Below are positions 32,318 through 63,817 of a DNA stretch of 64,000 nt, in pieces (the stretch's first letter is position 1; each line of letters opens with the position of its first letter). The stretch is from Bacteroidales bacterium (GTDB lineage Bacteria > Bacteroidota > Bacteroidia > Bacteroidales > UBA932): NCBI GenBank assembly GCA_017412645.1, contig JAFPWX010000022.1, positions 1 through 64,000 of the forward strand, in the 5' to 3' direction. The notes beneath the pieces are model-generated. The model saw only the letters and a program-made list of their open reading frames with translations. It made no database searches and had not been told where the DNA came from. Made by a program: the position numbers and the translations under genes.

Positions 32318-33448
32318 ATGTCAATCGAGATCAAGGAAGTGAAATCGAGGAAAGAACTTCGTCGTTTTGTGAATTTCCCGGAAAAGCTTTACAGGCACAA
32401 TCCCAATTACGTTCCATATCTGGAATTCGACCAGATGGATACACTTGATCCCAAGACCAACCCAGCTGCTGAATTCTGCAATTACAAGCTCTATATGGCG
32501 TTCAAGGACGGAGAAGAGGTTGGTCGAGTGGCAGCTATAGTAAACCATAAGAACAACGAGCAGTGGAACCATAAGCAGGTTCGTTTCGGCTGGATAGACT
32601 TCATCGACGATCGTGCAGTTTCCACGGCACTTATGAATAAAGTGGAAGAATTCGGCCGCGAATATGGTATGGACGAGGTTGTAGGTCCTCTGGGATTCAC
32701 CGATATGGACCCTGAAGGCACCCTGATCGAAGGTTTCGACCGCGAGAGTACCATGCCCCAGATATACAACGATCCTTATTATCAGGATCATCTGGAGGCT
32801 ATGGGCTTCACGAAAGATGCAGACTGGCTGGAGTTCAGGGCCGCTATACCCGAGAAACTTCCCGACAAGATAGAACGTCTGGAAAAGATAGTGCTCGAGC
32901 GCAACAACCTGCGTCTGGTCCAGGTTACCCGCAAACTCATCAGGGAGAACGATTACGCTCACAAGATATTCGCCCTCGACAACGAGACTTATAAGACCCT
33001 TTATAACGTTACCGAGTTGCCCATGGATGCGGCCGACCGTTATATCGGTTTCTACCTTAAGGTCCTCGATCTTCGTTACCTCAGCTGCGTGGAGAATGAA
33101 GCCGGCGAACTGGTGGGTTTCGGTATCACCATGCCCTCGCTCGCCCGCGCCCTCAAAAAGAGCCGCGGTCGTCTCTTCCCGTTCGGCTGGTGGCATCTGC
33201 TTCACGACCTCTTCATCAAGCATTCCGAGGGAGCCGAGTTGCTCCTTATTGGTGTCCGCCCTGATTATCAGAACCTGGGAGTGAATGCGGTTATCATTGC
33301 AGACATTTTCCACAAGTATCAGAAGTTAGGAGTGAAGTGGGTGGAGAGCAATGGTGAACTTGAAACCAACATCAAGGTGCAGAAACAGTTCGAGATGTTC
33401 AATCCAGACTGGTGCAAGCGCCGTCGTGCCTATATAAAGAAACTGTAA
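32318..33448 (+). CDS. GNAT-fold N-acyltransferase-like protein
   Basis: This 376-residue cytoplasmic protein starts with 'KELRRFVNFPEKLYRHNPNYVPYL' and contains a GNAT-type central region ('EEVGRVAAIVN', 'GPLGFTDMDPEGTLIEGFD', 'LVGFGITMP') and a C-terminal 'GVRPDYQNLGVNAVI...KLGVKWVESNGELETN' segment like the acyl-CoA pocket of acetyltransferases. The family is known as large N-acyltransferases. A close relative is encoded at 59359-60476 beside fatty-acid activation genes, so an acyl donor is likelier than acetyl-CoA. A related GNAT-like protein is described as ceramide synthase in Caulobacter, and Bacteroidales make sphingolipids, but the link is an inference. It lies just before rarA, sharing a one-base junction. 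Confidence 0.7.
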   Translation: MSIEIKEVKSRKELRRFVNFPEKLYRHNPNYVPYLEFDQMDTLDPKTNPAAEFCNYKLYMAFKDGEEVGRVAAIVNHKNNEQWNHKQVRFGWIDFIDDRAVSTALMNKVEEFGREYGMDEVVGPLGFTDMDPEGTLIEGFDRESTMPQIYNDPYYQDHLEAMGFTKDADWLEFRAAIPEKLPDKIERLEKIVLERNNLRLVQVTRKLIRENDYAHKIFALDNETYKTLYNVTELPMDAADRYIGFYLKVLDLRYLSCVENEAGELVGFGITMPSLARALKKSRGRLFPFGWWHLLHDLFIKHSEGAELLLIGVRPDYQNLGVNAVIIADIFHKYQKLGVKWVESNGELETNIKVQKQFEMFNPDWCKRRRAYIKKL

Positions 33449-58112: not shown

Positions 58113-58340
58113 CTATTTATTCAGAGAATCTAAATAACTCACCACGTCGCCCACTGTTTCGAACTTGGCGAGGGCCTTGTCGGGAATCACAATTCCGTAG
58201 TCGTCTTCCAATCTCATGAGGAGTTGGAGTATGTCCAGGGAATCGGCACCGAGATCTTTCTTTATCTGTGCGTCGAGGGTGACGCGGGAGGGATCTACGC
58301 GCAGCTGACGCGCGAGTATGGTTTTCACTTCGTCGTACAT
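58113..58340 (-). CDS. acpP: Acyl carrier protein, Firmicutes-like
   Basis: The 75-residue acidic protein carries the phosphopantetheine attachment Ser in 'LGADSLDIL' at about residue 37 and the usual four-helix spacing. The wording 'VKTILARQLRVDPSRVTLDAQIKKDLGADSLDILQLLMRLEDDYGIVIPD' resembles clostridial ACPs more than the Bacteroidota housekeeping form. It lies two bases after plsX and at the end of a fatty-acid activation operon, so it is probably a dedicated acceptor for acyl groups delivered by PlsX. Whether it is loaded by the usual phosphopantetheinyl transferase is unknown. Confidence 0.88.
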   Translation of the reverse strand: MYDEVKTILARQLRVDPSRVTLDAQIKKDLGADSLDILQLLMRLEDDYGIVIPDKALAKFETVGDVVSYLDSLNK

Positions 58341-58342
58341 GG

Positions 58343-59362
58343 CTAATATTCGTAGTGATCGTATTTCATGATAATCTCTTCCATCTTGGCGGGAAGGGCG
58401 TTCTGCTCCATCTTCCAGGCCTGCTCGATGCATTTGAACACGGCAGTGGCCTTGCTTGAGCCGTGCCCCTTCACTATGGTCTTGCAGGTACCCAGGAGCA
58501 CGCTTCCGCCGTAGTTCTGGTAGTTCATAAAGTCTTTCTCCTCCATGAACATACGTTTCATCAGCAGGGCGCCCAGCTTGTAGATGGTGCGGGAATATAT
58601 GTCTTTCTTGAGTTTTTTAAGCAGTTCCAGGGCTGTGCCTTCGGTGGTCTTGACCAGCACGTTGCCCGAGAAGCCGTCGGCCACCACAAGGTCGTAGCTG
58701 CCGGAGAGCAGATCGCGGCTTTCCATATTGCCCACGAAGTTGATTTCGGGAGTCTGAGAAAGGAGCTCGTAGGCCTTCTGATGCGTTTCGTCGCCCTTTT
58801 CGGCCTCTTTGCCCACGTTCAGCAGGGCCACTCTCGGCCGCGCTACGCCGTACACGTTTTCCATATAGAGGCTGCCCATTATGGCAAATTGCCGGAGATG
58901 CTCCGGGGTCACATCCACATTGGCTCCGCTGTCGCAGATGACCACGAGCCCACCGTCCATGGTTGGCAGGATGGGGCAGAAGGCGGGACGTATCACACCC
59001 CTGATGCGGCCTATGCGTGTGAGGGCTGCGGTAACCAGGGCTCCGGTGGAGCCCACGCTCACCAGAGCGGCGATGTCATCGCGGTCACGCAGCAGGCGTA
59101 TGGCCTTGATCATGGAGCTCTCTTTCTTGAGGCGCACGGCGTCGATGGGGCGCTCGTCGCAGCCTATCACTTCGGGAGCATGCACAATCTCCAGACGGGC
59201 GGCGTCGTACTTCTTTCCCTCCAGGCAGGCCTTCAGCGAGGCTTCGTCGCCCGTGAGGATAAGATACAGGTCGGGAAAGGCCTCCAGGGCCTTCAGTCCA
59301 CCTTCCACATTGGCTTCGGGGCTGTGGTCGCCGCCGAAGCAGTCGAGCAGAATCTTCATCAT
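58343..59362 (-). CDS. plsX: Phosphate acyltransferase PlsX, clostridial-like
   Basis: The 339-residue protein starts with 'ILLDCFGGDHSPEANVEG' and shows the PlsX landmarks 'APEVIGCDERPIDAVRLKKESSM', 'GSTGALVTAALTRIGRI', 'DGFSGNVLVKTTEGTALELL' and 'GGSVLLGTCKTIVKGHGSSKA'. PlsX interconverts acyl-phosphate and acyl-ACP at the membrane face. The second half, with 'STEGTAL.LL', 'GALLMKR' and 'HGSSKA', resembles Clostridia more than the Bacteroidota form. Two overlapping ATGs (59362 and 59359) could start it; the stop of the upstream gene overlaps both. It is followed by acp after two bases, the natural pair for an acyl-phosphate to acyl-ACP step. Confidence 0.93.
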   Translation of the reverse strand: MMKILLDCFGGDHSPEANVEGGLKALEAFPDLYLILTGDEASLKACLEGKKYDAARLEIVHAPEVIGCDERPIDAVRLKKESSMIKAIRLLRDRDDIAALVSVGSTGALVTAALTRIGRIRGVIRPAFCPILPTMDGGLVVICDSGANVDVTPEHLRQFAIMGSLYMENVYGVARPRVALLNVGKEAEKGDETHQKAYELLSQTPEINFVGNMESRDLLSGSYDLVVADGFSGNVLVKTTEGTALELLKKLKKDIYSRTIYKLGALLMKRMFMEEKDFMNYQNYGGSVLLGTCKTIVKGHGSSKATAVFKCIEQAWKMEQNALPAKMEEIIMKYDHYEY

Positions 59363-60372
59363 AACGGTTTTACATATGCACGGTGGAGCTTTATCTTCTC
59401 TTCGTCGAAGCGCTTCCACTGGTTCTGTATGGCGTAATTGTCTTCCAGGTTCATATTGGTCTCGGCGTATTTGATGCCCGGACGTGCCAGCATATCCAGC
59501 AGGCCGGCCGAAACTATCACGCTCACTCCCCTGTTCAGCCATTCCGGATCCACGCCCACAAGACAGAGATCTATCACGTCCGGCTTTTTCAGGGCCTTCA
59601 GGAGGCGCAGCAGGCAGCCGGGGGTAAGATGACCGGCACTCTTGCGCACAGCGTCCCCTACGGCCGGGAAAGCGATGCCGAAGCATACCATATGGTCGTT
59701 CTCGTCCAGGATCACCGCCACGTTGCGTACGTCCACCACCAGCTTGAAGTTGTCTATCATCAGCTTCTTCATGCCAGGGCTGAAGGGAACGGTGCCGTAG
59801 AGCAGGTCGTAGCTCTTGTCGATGAGTTCGAAGATGCCGTCGGCATACTTCTTAATGAACTCCCCGGTGCTGCGGGCGGTGCCCAGATGCAGCTTGTAGC
59901 GGCGCATCACGTAGTCCGCCATCTTGTGCAGATCTTCGCCGCCCTCGGCGGGCACGCGCAGACGGCTGCCTGTCCAATCCACTTCCTTCTTATAGCCCAG
60001 CCTTTCGATGAATTCACCGTAGTAGGGCGGATTCCAGGTCTCTTCGAAGGTGGCGGGATACTCGAAACCGCCAACCAGAAGGCCTTCGCGCTCGAGGTCC
60101 GAGAAGCTCAGCGGGCCGCAGGCGGTGTCCATGCCCTTTTCGCGGGCCCAGGCCTCTACGGCCTCGAAGAGTTGCCGTGCCACCTCGAAGTCTTCCACTG
60201 CCTCGAAACGGCAGAAACGAACCCGTTTTTCGCCGTTCTTTTCGTTGGCTGCCTTCTGGATGATGCCGGAGATGCGGCCTGCCATGGCGCCGTCGCGATA
60301 GGCGTTGAAGTACACCGCGTCGCAGGTATCGTTATAGATGAAATCCTTGCGGAAAATCTTCCGCTCATCCAT
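59359..60372 (-). CDS. GNAT-fold N-acyltransferase-like protein, open part of a frameshifted gene
   Basis: The open part encodes 337 residues that align with the 376-residue protein at 32318: 'YFNAYRDGAMAGRISGI', 'ACGPLSFSDLEREGLLVGGF', 'CFGIAFPAVGDAVRKS', 'LCLVGVDPEWLNRGVSVIV' and 'KYAETNMNLEDN' match 'AFKDGEEVGRVAAI', 'VVGPLGFTDMDPEGTLIEGF', 'GFGITMPSLARALKKS', 'LLIGVRPDYQNLGVNAVII' and 'KWVESNGELETN'. The missing N-terminal ~35 residues are present upstream in a different frame (next entry). It lies between fakB and plsX, so a role as an acyltransferase using acyl-ACP or acyl-phosphate is the natural reading. It may be inactive as assembled if the frameshift is real. Confidence 0.72.
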   Translation of the reverse strand: MDERKIFRKDFIYNDTCDAVYFNAYRDGAMAGRISGIIQKAANEKNGEKRVRFCRFEAVEDFEVARQLFEAVEAWAREKGMDTACGPLSFSDLEREGLLVGGFEYPATFEETWNPPYYGEFIERLGYKKEVDWTGSRLRVPAEGGEDLHKMADYVMRRYKLHLGTARSTGEFIKKYADGIFELIDKSYDLLYGTVPFSPGMKKLMIDNFKLVVDVRNVAVILDENDHMVCFGIAFPAVGDAVRKSAGHLTPGCLLRLLKALKKPDVIDLCLVGVDPEWLNRGVSVIVSAGLLDMLARPGIKYAETNMNLEDNYAIQNQWKRFDEEKIKLHRAYVKPL

Positions 60373-60476
60373 ATAGAGCGGCGGGGTGTAATACGGATTG
60401 CCCTTGTACAGTTTTCCGGGAAACGGAGGAAGTCCCTCCTCTGCCGGGCGGTGCTCACTTTAACTGTTTCTATCAT
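60373..60476 (-). pseudogene. Frame-displaced 5' end of the GNAT-fold gene
   Basis: ATG at 60476 opens MIETVKVSTARQRRDFLRFP, then the frame must shift at the three-C run (60418-60420 on the minus strand) to continue as GKLYKGNPYYTPPLYMDER and join the open part at 60372. The combined order matches the N-terminus of the relative at 32318 ('LRRFVNFPEKLYRHNPNYVPYL'). One extra C would restore a single frame. This could be a real mutation, a phase-variable or programmed slip, or an assembly/sequencing error in a homopolymer. Confidence 0.65.
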
Positions 60477-60479
60477 GTT

Positions 60480-61349
60480 TTATCTGTGAATTGCGTGGAA
60501 GCAGATGCCGAGTCCGTTGGGGCCGCAGTGGCTGCCGATGGTGGGATTCACCACGGTTGTGAGGATGCGGAGGCTGTCGCCGAACTTCTCGAGCAGCATG
60601 CTCTTGGCGAGCTCTACCAACTCCGGGCAGTCGGAATGGCCTATCACCACGCGGTGTGCGGTCACGTCTTCGCCCAGTTCCTCCACATACTGCACGAGCC
60701 TGGCTACCGCCTTGTTGCGGCCGGTCTCCTTGCCTATGGACACCATCTTGCCATTCTCGTCCACGTGGATTACCGGACGTATGCCGATAAGGCCACCCAT
60801 AGTAGCTGCGAGTCCGCTCACGCGGCCGCTGCGGCGGAAGAACTTGAGATCGTCGGCGATGAAGTACATCGGGAACTTGGGAACCTCGGTCTTCGCCCAT
60901 TCCACTATCTCGTCGGGAGTCTTGCCGGCCTTCAGAAGGTCGGCAACCTCCAGCACTATATTATAGGATTCGGCGCTGATGCCAAGGGTGTCCACGTGCC
61001 AGAATTTGCGTTCAGGATACTTGGCTAGCAGCTTTTTCACTGCCATGTCCATGTTGTTGAAGGTGTTGGACATGCCTGACGAGAAATGCACGTAAAGGAT
61101 ATCGTTTCCCGCAGCGAATTCAGGTTCAAAGTATTTCACGTAAACTTCCTCGCCCTGGGCGCTGGTGGTGGGAATCACTCCCCCGCGAAGCATGTCGTAG
61201 AAGGCATGGGAGTCGAATTCCTCGAAGTCCACATAGGGGGTGACCACCTTGTCGCCCACGGTATAGGGCATATGGATGAGTTTAATTCCGTATTCTGCAC
61301 ACTCACGCGGGGTGATGTCGCAGTCGGTATCGCTGAAAAAGCTTAACAT
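60480..61349 (-). CDS. DegV-family fatty-acid-binding protein (FakB-like)
   Basis: This 289-residue protein has the DegV fold: 'FFSDTDCDITPRECAEYGIKLIHMPY' at the N-terminus, 'TTSAQGEEVYVKYFEP' (Thr/Ser of the carboxylate site), 'SSGMSNTFNNMDMA' and 'LKFFRRSGRVSGLAATMGGLIGIRPV'. In Firmicutes FakB holds a free fatty acid while FakA phosphorylates it to acyl-phosphate. The ATG overlaps the FakA stop by seven bases, strengthening the FakA-FakB assignment. It also has a C-terminal 'HCGPNGLGICFHA' tail. It starts the order FakB-GNAT-PlsX-ACP. Confidence 0.85.
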   Translation of the reverse strand: MLSFFSDTDCDITPRECAEYGIKLIHMPYTVGDKVVTPYVDFEEFDSHAFYDMLRGGVIPTTSAQGEEVYVKYFEPEFAAGNDILYVHFSSGMSNTFNNMDMAVKKLLAKYPERKFWHVDTLGISAESYNIVLEVADLLKAGKTPDEIVEWAKTEVPKFPMYFIADDLKFFRRSGRVSGLAATMGGLIGIRPVIHVDENGKMVSIGKETGRNKAVARLVQYVEELGEDVTAHRVVIGHSDCPELVELAKSMLLEKFGDSLRILTTVVNPTIGSHCGPNGLGICFHAIHR

Positions 61350-62977
61350 AGTACTGTGATGTAATCATAAACGGGCTGTCCGCCCTCGTTCAACATAATT
61401 TCAAGATTAGGATATTTTGCCGCTGCGGCCGCACGGAAGGCTTCTGCCTCGGGGGCGGGCACGTCTGAGCCTGAGAAGATGAGCAGCACGTCCCTGTCGG
61501 CGGCGCCCATCTTGTCCAGAAGGGCGACGGCTGCTTCGGCGCGCAGCTTGGAGCCGCTGAGCATGGTTTTGCCGCTGTAACCCACGAATTCTCCGCAGTG
61601 CACCGGGGTGCCGTCGGCAGTAACCGTGTCGCGGATGGCGGTGGAAACCTGCCCCGTGGCCACCGAGGCCATTATTTCGCGCACCCCCGCCAGCACTTCC
61701 TCCCCGTCTGCGTTGTCCCGGTCTACCGAGGCGATGCCGTAGTAGCCTTCGCCGATGTTGGCCGACGGGACCACGTCAACGTCACCATCCTTATACAGCG
61801 TGGCCGCCTGTTCAGCCGCCATGCGTATGTTGGGATTGTTCGGGAAGACGAGTATGTGCTGCGCATTGATGCGGCCGAAAGCGTCCAGGAAGTCCTGGGT
61901 AGACGGGTTCATGGTCTGCCCGCCGGCTATCACCTCGTCGGCACCGATTTCCCGGAACGCGGCGGTGAGACCCTCTCCTGAGGCGACGGTGACTATGCCG
62001 TATTTCTTGGGAGGCAGCTTGAATGAAGCGTTGCCCGCATTGCTTTCCTGATGGTGCTGCAGGGCCATGTTCTCTATCTTTATGGTAAGGAACTCGCCGT
62101 ACTGCTGAGCGTGGTTCAGGATTTCACCGGGATGAAAAGTATGGACGTGCGCCTTGAATATGCTGCCGTCGCGGAAGGCCACAACCGAATTGCCGACGCT
62201 CTCGAGCCACTGTATGAGTGGCTTCTCGTCGAAGGTTTCCAGATCCACCTTGTCGCTGCGGAGACGCAGCAGAAACTCCGTGCAGTAGCCGAACTCAAGC
62301 GGGGTTTCCGGGCCGAATTTCGACAGGTCCACGTAATTTGCCTGAGGTGCCGACGGCTCAGCCGCGTCTTCGGCGGAAACCACCCCGTGAAGGGCGTCCT
62401 TCATTCCCTGGAAGATGCTCAGCAGGCCTGCGCCGCCGCTGTCCACCACTCCGGCGTCCTTAAGAGCCTGCAGCAGTTCGGGAGTATGCTCAAGCGAGCG
62501 CTCCATTGCGGGGATGAGGGTGTCGAAATAGAGTTCCAGGTCGCCTGATGCATCGGCGGTTTCGGCTCCTTCACGGAGTACCGTGATGATGGTGCCTTCC
62601 ACCGGCACGGGGACTGCCCCGTAGGCCGATTCCACAGCCTTGCCCATTGCAGCGGCAAAGCCGGCGGCATCCACGGTTTCCCTGCCCTCCAGGCCCTTTG
62701 CGAGCCCTGCGAAAATGCGGGAAAGGATTACCCCGGAATTGCCCCTGGCGCCGAGCAGCATGCCCTGGGAAGCGGCGTATGAGTTTTCGCCAAGGGCCTT
62801 GCCGCTCTGAATCCCTGCGACACCTGCCCTTAAGGTCATAAGCATATTGTCGCCGGTGTCGCCGTCTGGCACGGGGAACACGTTCAAGTTGTTTATGGTG
62901 TTCCTATTATTTGAAAGGGATGCCACACCTTCGCGCAGCATCCCCGTAAAGAGACTTGAATCTAGATATGTAGTCAT
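61343..62977 (-). CDS. FakA-like fatty acid kinase (DAK2/DhaL plus DegV-like C-terminal domain)
   Basis: This 544-residue protein has an N-terminal DhaL/DAK2 domain with Mg/ATP-site motif 'NVFPVPDGDTGDNM' (about 30-43) and 'GARGNSGVILSRIFAG', a middle domain and a C-terminal FakA-type segment from 'KKYGIVTVASGEGL' (about 320) onward. This matches the YloV/FakA family. In Firmicutes it phosphorylates fatty acids presented by FakB. It lies 36 bases after the coiled-coil gene and overlaps fakB by seven bases. FakA is not a usual Bacteroidota housekeeping protein, which supports acquisition of the operon. Confidence 0.85.
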   Translation of the reverse strand: MTTYLDSSLFTGMLREGVASLSNNRNTINNLNVFPVPDGDTGDNMLMTLRAGVAGIQSGKALGENSYAASQGMLLGARGNSGVILSRIFAGLAKGLEGRETVDAAGFAAAMGKAVESAYGAVPVPVEGTIITVLREGAETADASGDLELYFDTLIPAMERSLEHTPELLQALKDAGVVDSGGAGLLSIFQGMKDALHGVVSAEDAAEPSAPQANYVDLSKFGPETPLEFGYCTEFLLRLRSDKVDLETFDEKPLIQWLESVGNSVVAFRDGSIFKAHVHTFHPGEILNHAQQYGEFLTIKIENMALQHHQESNAGNASFKLPPKKYGIVTVASGEGLTAAFREIGADEVIAGGQTMNPSTQDFLDAFGRINAQHILVFPNNPNIRMAAEQAATLYKDGDVDVVPSANIGEGYYGIASVDRDNADGEEVLAGVREIMASVATGQVSTAIRDTVTADGTPVHCGEFVGYSGKTMLSGSKLRAEAAVALLDKMGAADRDVLLIFSGSDVPAPEAEAFRAAAAAKYPNLEIMLNEGGQPVYDYITVLC

Positions 62978-63013: not shown

Positions 63014-63817
63014 TTATTCAGCAACGGGCTCGGCAGGAGCCGGAACAGGCTCTGCAGGTGCCTCAGCGGGAACCTCGGGAGCAGCGGGAACCACCACGGG
63101 CTCTTCAACAACGGGCTGTACGGGTTCGAGAGGGACAATGGGTTCGTTCTGAACGGGAACCACAACACTGTTTTCAACCTGCGGAGCAGAGGTTGCGGCG
63201 GAAGCAGCGGCGGCAGCCTTTTCAGCAGCGGCGGCAGCCTTTTCTTCGGCGGCAGCCTGCTTCTGGGTGTTCTTGAGGGTCTGCTTTGCGAGGTTCACTT
63301 CGTCCTTTGCGGCGCTGTTGGCTGCCTTGTAAGCGGAGATCTTCTTGTTCTCGGTGGAGATATTGTCGTTCAGTGTGGCGATCTTGGCCTTGCTGGTCTT
63401 GATATCCTGCTTGATGGCACTGATTTCGGCTTCAATGGTTTTCCATTCGCCTTCGAGAGCTTTCAAATGAAGCTTGTCGGACTGGCTGAGGCCGCCGTCG
63501 GCGGAGAGGTTCTCCTTCTCGGCCTTGTAGGCATCCTTCTTGAGCTTGATGGTGGTCTGCTTGTTCTTGATCTGAGTATTGAGGTTCTCGATGACAACCT
63601 TCTCCTGCTCGATCTGAGCCTTGTAGGCGGCGATGCTGGACTTACTCGCGGCTATCTGGCCTTCGCTTTCACGCACTTGGGCAACATACTTTGCCTGGGC
63701 GGCATCGAGCCGGGCCTGGGCGATGTTGATGGCGTCGTTGCTGTTCTGGGCGTTTGCTGAAACGCCGGAAACGAGAGCTGCCACAGCAGCTGCAATGAGG
63801 ATGAGAGACTTTTTCAT
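63014..63817 (-). CDS. Secreted coiled-coil protein with Pro/Val/Glu-rich tail
   Basis: This 267-residue protein has a signal peptide (about 1-23), a long Lys/Glu/Ala-rich coiled-coil region (about 25-190) and a tail rich in Ala, then Pro/Val/Glu ('PVQNEPIVPLEPVQPVVEEP' style repeats). It has no enzymatic motif. The coiled-coil and extended tail suggest a periplasmic spacer or envelope-anchoring protein. It precedes fakA by 36 bases and may be cotranscribed, but a functional link is unproven. A TATATTTG box (63852-63845, minus) lies 28 bases upstream, with a weak -33 region. Confidence 0.75.
   Translation of the reverse strand: MKKSLILIAAAVAALVSGVSANAQNSNDAINIAQARLDAAQAKYVAQVRESEGQIAASKSSIAAYKAQIEQEKVVIENLNTQIKNKQTTIKLKKDAYKAEKENLSADGGLSQSDKLHLKALEGEWKTIEAEISAIKQDIKTSKAKIATLNDNISTENKKISAYKAANSAAKDEVNLAKQTLKNTQKQAAAEEKAAAAAEKAAAAASAATSAPQVENSVVVPVQNEPIVPLEPVQPVVEEPVVVPAAPEVPAEAPAEPVPAPAEPVAE

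Follow-up and report, generated by a model that had tools for sequence, protein, structure and literature searches.

A FakA-FakB-PlsX-acyl carrier protein operon with a YghO-family acyltransferase, shared by Bacteroidales and Clostridia

A 64,000-nucleotide stretch of a Bacteroidales genome (contig JAFPWX010000022.1 of assembly GCA_017412645.1; hereafter the window) carries five adjacent genes for a FakA-like fatty acid kinase, a FakB-like fatty-acid-binding protein, a GNAT-type acyltransferase, PlsX and an acyl carrier protein (ACP). We propose that the Fak, PlsX and ACP proteins form a fatty-acid line that feeds an N-acyltransferase of the ceramide synthase family with a ceramide-type product, and give this reading a probability of roughly 0.45. 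In such a pathway, FakB would present a free fatty acid, FakA would phosphorylate it to acyl-phosphate, PlsX would move the acyl group to the ACP of the operon and the GNAT-type enzyme, of the YghO/CC_1154 family, would pass it on from acyl-ACP to an amine. This acceptor would most likely be a long-chain base (3-oxo-sphinganine or sphinganine), supplied by a serine palmitoyltransferase (SPT) whose gene lies in another part of the genome, and the product would be (oxo-)dihydroceramide. The broader claim, N-acylation of some amine by the enzyme with acyl-ACP as donor, is in our judgement probably correct. The evidence comes from the recurrence of the gene order in two phyla, the family membership of the acyltransferase, the lack of PlsY and PlsB matches in the genus, the ancestry of the genes and the co-occurrence of SPT.

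Gene order and recurrence

Domain matches and recurrence of the order bear out the original prediction of five minus-strand genes of these types. FakA scores over the cut-offs for PF13684, PF02734 and PF21645 in Pfam and for YloV in NCBIfam; FakB does so for PF02645 and TIGR00762 (DegV), PlsX for PF02504 and the equivalog TIGR00182 (342.1 bits, cut-off 243.4), and the ACP for PF00550 and TIGR00517. FakA has the DAK2, middle and C-terminal domains and adjoins a FakB/DegV protein, the combination by which we recognized a Fak system, and its kinase activity is predicted. FakA does not reach the FakA_VfrB equivalog model (407.7 bits, cut-off 975), nor FakB the FakB1 model (79.2 bits, cut-off 350), and we therefore treat both as members of the Fak family and not as proven orthologues of the tested enzymes.

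A single scan of 84,980 species genomes gave at least 574 loci, and the best 80 of these, 43 from Bacteroidales/Bacteroidia and 37 from Clostridia/Bacillota by title, form our locus set; the phylum labels of loci from metagenome-assembled genomes (MAGs) are those of the submitters' titles. The order FakA-FakB-GNAT-PlsX-ACP, for which the original prediction could name no described Bacteroidales example, is present in 31 of the 36 Bacteroidales and 13 of the 29 clostridial loci whose flanks are long enough on either side (33 and 22, respectively, if the ACP is not required). Because it recurs across two phyla, the order is beyond chance. Carriers include the isolate Eubacterium ruminantium ATCC 17233, which has one extra gene, HAD-like by eye, between PlsX and ACP, and one named Bacteroidales, 'Candidatus Cryptobacteroides choladohippi' (L241). 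Within the genus of the window, 13 of 37 genomes are Fak-positive; a GNAT gene of the operon type (clade A, below) follows FakB in 11 of them, and 10 also have the operon-type PlsX and ACP. The ACP precedes PlsX in G036, and G011 and G034 have FakA-FakB without a clade-A GNAT.

The junctions are as tight as originally described: the start of FakB overlaps the FakA stop by 7 bases, GNAT and PlsX overlap by 1 base, and PlsX and ACP are separated by 2. The spacing between FakB and the acyltransferase is 3 bases when measured from an ATG at 60476 and 107 bases when measured from the 337-residue open reading frame (ORF) first taken as the gene. That extent did not hold up, as the ORF is a 5'-truncated call that lacks about 36 first residues; these lie in another frame, with the break (within 60,405-60,476) at a run of A near 60,410. 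Orthologues in the genus are open in 10 of 10 cases (373-377 amino acids), as are 78 of the 80 further loci (370-384 codons), the exceptions being L242, cut by a contig end, and L258, which is interrupted. The frame break in the window copy may be a mutation or an assembly error.

The acyltransferase belongs to the YghO family

The window acyltransferase matches no Pfam family and receives no NCBIfam name; a search of the PDB found nothing by sequence and, by profile, only chance-level matches to a DNA-protection protein (E of 0.8 and up). Its assignment to the GNAT group comes from two relatives that pass the Acetyltransf_1 cut-off slightly (23.0 and 22.6 bits against 20.7) and from homology to YghO. 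E. coli K-12 YghO aligns with the intact relative L211 at 26% identity across nearly the full length (119 bits), and a profile comparison of the family with YghO by hhalign gives 100% probability over 362 columns. Searching with YghO by phmmer recovered 101 of 101 GNAT rows (E of 3.5e-26 for the window protein); among 357 other ORFs of like size the one match was again the window protein, with no unrelated ORF. Judged by sequence, the window acyltransferase is a full-length member of the YghO family. This comparison used E. coli YghO, and CC_1154 of Caulobacter is tied in through PMC9386255, which, in the part accessible, equates yghO (ECD_02850) with CC_1154 under the gene name 'aca' and describes this gene as necessary for dihydroceramide; CC_1154 is presented in PMC11324152 as the presumed ceramide synthase (CerS). 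The earlier idea that the GNAT-fold protein N-acylates an amine has thus gained a family tie to ceramide, with donor and acceptor still predictions.

The family to which ACYLTRANSFERASE belongs has one to four matches in each of the 37 genus genomes. Elsewhere in the order, 19 of 24 genomes, all of other families, also have a match. When 102 members were placed in a tree (101 places and YghO, with shorter, weaker or unfetched places set aside, among them a G028 GNAT, the second of its genome, that lies next to a ligase), several clades were resolved. Clade A, the operon type, has 11 rows (support 100/100). Clade R has 34 rows (89/94) and adjoins a rarA-like gene in the window and in L093. Clade F has 24 rows, near FabF or in a fatty-acid-synthesis cluster: its genes lie near FabF in L091, L092 and L089 (contig C3 of the window's own genome), and L092 is in a fabH-fabK-fabF-fabZ-like cluster, named by eye except for FabF. 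Clade S comprises 14 rows (99/98), 11 of which have an AMP-binding ligase adjacent or within three genes and six a small ACP in view; smaller clades also exist. Clade S occurs only in SPT-positive genomes, provided that the SPT fragment of G015 counts as an SPT, and its ligase is also present without SPT in G010, G018 and G053. The operon at L220 has as neighbours a GNAT resembling clade S (outside the tree), an AMP-binding ligase and an ACP.

PlsX most likely forms acyl-ACP

The PlsX of the unit is the sole PF02504 match of its genome, which is 1.8 Mb in size and 96% complete, and we rejected the idea that it is a specialised second copy beside a housekeeping one. Of the second, housekeeping plsX and acpP that the original prediction had proposed to look for, only the latter was found: contig C22 of the same genome encodes an AcpP of the housekeeping type, and C18 has a third, weak PP-binding match. 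PlsY (PF02660) is matched in none of the 37 genus genomes, many of which are incomplete (range 58-98% complete), and is present in 14 of the 24 other genomes of the order. PlsB (GPAT_C, PF19277) is over the cut-off in none of the 61 genomes, including the 37 of the genus; there is one sub-threshold match, in G015. Strong PlsX matches occur in exactly the 13 genus genomes with FakA and in none of the other 24, and G004, G011 and G034 have a PlsX of a second type, 33% identical. The control genome of Bacteroides ihuae likewise has no PlsY, PlsB or strong PlsX match.

With no PlsY found to take up acyl-phosphate, PlsX most simply, and most likely, runs from acyl-phosphate to acyl-ACP, and the presence of only one PlsX with no PlsY or PlsB over the cut-off in the genus strengthens this salvage direction. 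Loss of fatty acid synthesis as the motive for salvage was rejected, as FabF is present in the genome, along with other fatty acid synthesis genes seen by eye.

The same absences raise the alternative that the GNAT enzyme replaces PlsB/PlsY by O-acylating glycerol-3-phosphate or a lysophospholipid, with Fak, PlsX and ACP as its acyl supply. The presence of the GNAT family in all 37 genomes of this PlsY-less genus would suit such a role, as would the position of clade F near FabF and within the cluster at L092. However, clade A is found in just 11 of the 37 genomes, G037 and G051 lack both PlsY and any GNAT match, and Clostridia normally have PlsY. YghO and CC_1154, moreover, are presented as N-acyltransferases needed for dihydroceramide (PMC9386255). 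The case for the GNAT as the missing glycerol-3-phosphate acyltransferase is weakened by these points, and we regard it as unlikely. Near PlsX, G034, G011, G004 and G039 encode a PlsC-related protein of 440-460 amino acids (PF01553 in the two tested); in L075, L079, L085 and L088, all from Fak-bearing genomes, the PlsC-domain protein near PlsX has a zinc-ribbon-like stretch and is a possible alternative acyltransferase.

Plain incorporation of exogenous fatty acids into phospholipid and fatty acid synthesis, with the GNAT as a passenger or a protein acetyltransferase, would also account for a Fak-PlsX line. FakAB-PlsX is described as doing so in Firmicutes (PMC11586512 and PMC10146087, in the parts accessible), and acyl-ACP could enter fatty acid synthesis given that FabF is present. 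The GNAT nevertheless keeps its place between FakB and PlsX across two phyla, and at three loci (L264, L285 and L287) it is kept with only the ACP, without Fak or PlsX there, which makes this explanation improbable. Those three loci also argue, as far as the locus itself goes, against direct use of acyl-phosphate by the GNAT, with PlsX and ACP serving also to supply acyl-phosphate from endogenous acyl-ACP; FakA-FakB-GNAT without directly following PlsX/ACP (L248, L252, L258 and G004) would fit this scheme, which we consider very improbable.

Probable clostridial ancestry

The PlsX tree, built from the 97 of 106 loci with a match of at least 220 amino acids, places the operon PlsX in one clade of 81 rows (SH-like approximate likelihood ratio support 97), apart from 12 other Bacteroidales PlsX. 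Within it, the 52 operon rows from Bacteroidales group together (99), and this group meets clostridial rows at a node with support of 80; L263, a clostridial row, has a long branch and is placed outside the operon clade. In the tree of clade-A GNATs, rooted on paralogues and built without the fragment L258, Bacteroidales rows lie among clostridial ones (99, 82, 96) in two clades. The table of label changes for this tree counts the window's clade-R paralogue as Bacteroidales, which inflates the number of changes and leaves the tree unaffected. The operon ACP shares 42 of 75 residues with its E. ruminantium counterpart, compared with 32 of 75 with the AcpP on contig C22. Horizontal acquisition, suggested at first from the clostridial style of PlsX and ACP, is upheld by the two trees and, for the ACP, by these pairwise identities. 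Given that Bacteroidales PlsX and GNAT join clostridial copies, the best reading of the sequences is that the cassette moved from gut Clostridia to a set of Bacteroidales of the rumen and gut, in one or two events.

Association with serine palmitoyltransferase

The genome of the window (contig C20) encodes a 396-residue SPT on contig C12. In the genus, strong SPT matches (55-59% identity) are found in 13 of 13 Fak-positive genomes compared with 8 of the 24 that are Fak-negative (9 with the fragment of G015; Fisher's P = 7e-5, not corrected for descent), and in 8 of 8 compared with 2 of 9 when only genomes at least 85% complete are considered. Among 20 clostridial carrier genomes, hand-picked from the 37 clostridial loci, 7 have an SPT at 48-51% identity, compared with 46 of 390 in a sample of the class (P = 0.008). 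That sample was read at 48% identity or more and E <= 1e-112 and excludes G064 (49 of 391 at 47% or more); up to four candidates were scored per genome, the sample may itself contain carriers, and the partial SPT of G070 counts among the carriers whereas the similar partial of G247 is not counted in the sample. By eye, an SDR gene follows the SPT in four of these seven clostridial carriers, confirmed by Pfam in one. Two further carriers have an AMP-binding/ACP/SPT fusion of 1041 and 1048 amino acids, and such a fusion occurs in two of the three genomes with loci of GNAT and ACP only. In two other Bacteroidales families, a GNAT of the family directly follows SPT (G055 at L094; G047 at L124).

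Fusions of AMP-binding and PP-binding domains with an SPT-like aminotransferase were seen in Lachnospiraceae MAGs at L293:2829-5951, followed by an SDR gene, and at L294:1873-5016. In the class sample, 49 of 391 Clostridia genomes have SPT-like proteins (47-56% identity), many of them next to an ORF that is SDR-like by eye; no GNAT of the YghO family lies within 1.5 kb of SPT in the 30 such loci fetched (L302-L331). A literature search for clostridial SPT gave, among the matches listed, none that describes one in its title or the start of its abstract, most subscription literature being outside the scope.

Several observations weigh against a ceramide-type product. The window's own GNAT gene is frame-broken, and the SPT of its genome has no sphingolipid-like neighbour by eye. 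SPT, SDR-reductase and clade-S ligase queries had no match in the window or in the 11 kb that follow it on the contig, and across the 80 loci the only SPT-type matches, at 33-38%, are in L274 and L289 (ligase matches are in L220, L245 and L268). Of the seven clostridial SPTs, one (G078) contains an in-frame stop and two (G070 and G062) are fragmented or partial. Explaining the Fak label on the FabF tree takes 4-5 changes, that is, few independent events; the 37 genus genomes are therefore not independent points, and the Fisher values are no measure of causal linkage. We considered a link with SPT by descent only, and these label counts leave few independent events.

The salvage line may instead lead to N-acylation of an amino acid, an amino lipid or a biogenic amine, at least in SPT-less Clostridia. 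Of the clostridial carriers, 13 of 20 lack an SPT of the type sought (11 of 20 if fusions count as SPT), among them the isolate E. ruminantium, which has no SPT match at all. Moreover, the paralogous clades R and F are found in genomes without SPT, so the GNAT family is not limited to ceramide. Against this possibility, the accessible literature connects the characterised branch of the family with dihydroceramide, SPT is enriched among carriers in both phyla and no amine-supplying gene was noticed among the listed conserved neighbours; we consider it somewhat doubtful and favour a long-chain base as the acceptor.

Export genes and other features

An MMPL-type exporter gene is directly upstream of FakA in 19 of the 30 Bacteroidales loci with room for it, and a LolA-like gene is present in 26 of 43 Bacteroidales loci, in 11 of them directly after ACP/PlsX on the same strand; the identity of each was assigned by Pfam runs on two members. 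Neither cluster occurs in the 37 clostridial loci, and neither gene is near the window copy. Both flank the operon in L213, L216, L221, L222, L225 and L226 (Bacteroidales). Such neighbours would suit a lipid product bound for the outer membrane, and many Bacteroidales copies of a cassette of clostridial descent would have gained them.

Table 1 Coordinates of the five-gene unit and of a paralogue in the window
Feature	Position	Strand	Remarks
FakA-like fatty acid kinase	61343..62977	-	544 aa; DAK2, middle and FakA-like C domains
FakB/DegV-family fatty-acid-binding protein	60480..61349	-	289 aa
YghO/CerS-family GNAT-type acyltransferase gene, full extent	59359..60476	-	frame broken in A run near 60,410
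3' open part of the acyltransferase gene (ORF of the original prediction)	59359..60372	-	337 aa
PlsX, acyl-ACP:phosphate acyltransferase	58343..59359	-	338 aa
Acyl carrier protein	58113..58340	-	75 aa, start taken at 58340; within ORF 58113-58433
GNAT-family paralogue, clade R, outside the operon	32318..33448	+	376 aa; adjoins rarA-like gene (named by eye)

Directly upstream of FakA in the window (63014-63817) is a gene for a 267-residue protein that appears secreted and coiled-coil-like by eye and has no Pfam or NCBIfam family over the cut-off. A PAP2-like protein below the Pfam cut-off is encoded shortly after the ACP in E. ruminantium (L290:10682-11344) and in a Lachnospiraceae MAG (L268:7882-8565). 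In G005, a ketosynthase-like and an MMPL-like gene are clustered on the contig of the operon (L076:2159-8919), a cluster that we take to be perhaps of the aryl-polyene type.

Relation to known systems

The components of the unit are known, and their combination was not found described in the literature searched: by title and start of abstract, none of the matches listed reports a Fak-GNAT-PlsX-ACP operon, most subscription literature being outside the scope. The closest parallel is the AasR-AcpR-Spt-CerS system of Caulobacter and E. coli BL21, which, according to the accessible parts of PMC9386255 and PMC11324152, likewise places free fatty acids on a dedicated ACP for sphingolipid and needs an N-acyltransferase of the same family; acyl-AcpR made by AasR is preferred by Spt (PMC11324152). 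That system activates fatty acids by an acyl-ACP synthetase, whereas the unit would do so by a kinase and PlsX; the unit also contains the N-acyltransferase and not Spt, and its hosts are Clostridia and Bacteroidales. There is no ligase among the five genes, and the clade-S ligase query is unmatched in the window and, at E <= 1e-30, in the genome, other acyl-ACP synthetases not having been sought. Lacking an acyl-ACP synthetase, the unit is not a member of the AasR/AcpR/CerS system. By analogy, it would be an acyl-phosphate counterpart of the AasR/AcpR pair, through which Proteobacteria channel free fatty acids into sphingolipids.

Salvage by FakA/FakB-PlsX in Firmicutes (Staphylococcus aureus and Enterococcus faecalis) shares the kinase, the binder and the route through acyl-phosphate to acyl-ACP. 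As presented in the accessible literature, it feeds phospholipid via PlsY/PlsC as well as fatty acid synthesis; the unit instead brings a YghO-family acyltransferase together with an ACP, and the genus has no PlsY match. Alistipes also moves host fatty acids onto ACP within the Bacteroidales (PMC9386255, in part), but by an acyl-ACP synthetase, with activation chemistry different from that predicted here. Fatty acids are likewise joined to amines in gut Clostridia by the fatty-acid-amide clusters (OaaC, nonribosomal peptide synthetase-like) of PMC13142362; these use a free-standing condensation domain and not a GNAT, and the start of that abstract does not name Fak or PlsX.

Implications

A wider scenario, which we put forward tentatively and hold to be less likely than the ceramide-type product itself, is that salvaged fatty acids are turned into N-acyl sphingoid lipids by a mobile cassette from Clostridia, via acyl-phosphate, with FakAB/PlsX in place of the acyl-ACP synthetase and a divergent ceramide synthase in the same operon as an ACP of its own. 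In that case sphingolipids would be made by many gut Clostridia, and a rumen Bacteroidales genus that kept SPT would have acquired the cassette, with many lineages adding an MMPL exporter and a LolA-like carrier for delivery of the product to the outer membrane. The finding points to sphingolipid genes in Clostridia. It also draws attention to the glycerol-3-phosphate acylation step in Bacteroidales, given a genus with no PlsY match, no PlsB over the cut-off and, in 24 of 37 genomes, no strong PlsX. The proposal is testable, as the unit is compact, with five genes, and E. ruminantium ATCC 17233 is a cultured carrier. If it is correct, the Fak/PlsX route, known in the accessible literature for building phospholipid in Firmicutes, would have a second use as the acyl supply for N-acyl lipids, and fatty acids from the host or the diet would enter sphingolipid-type molecules of rumen and gut bacteria directly.

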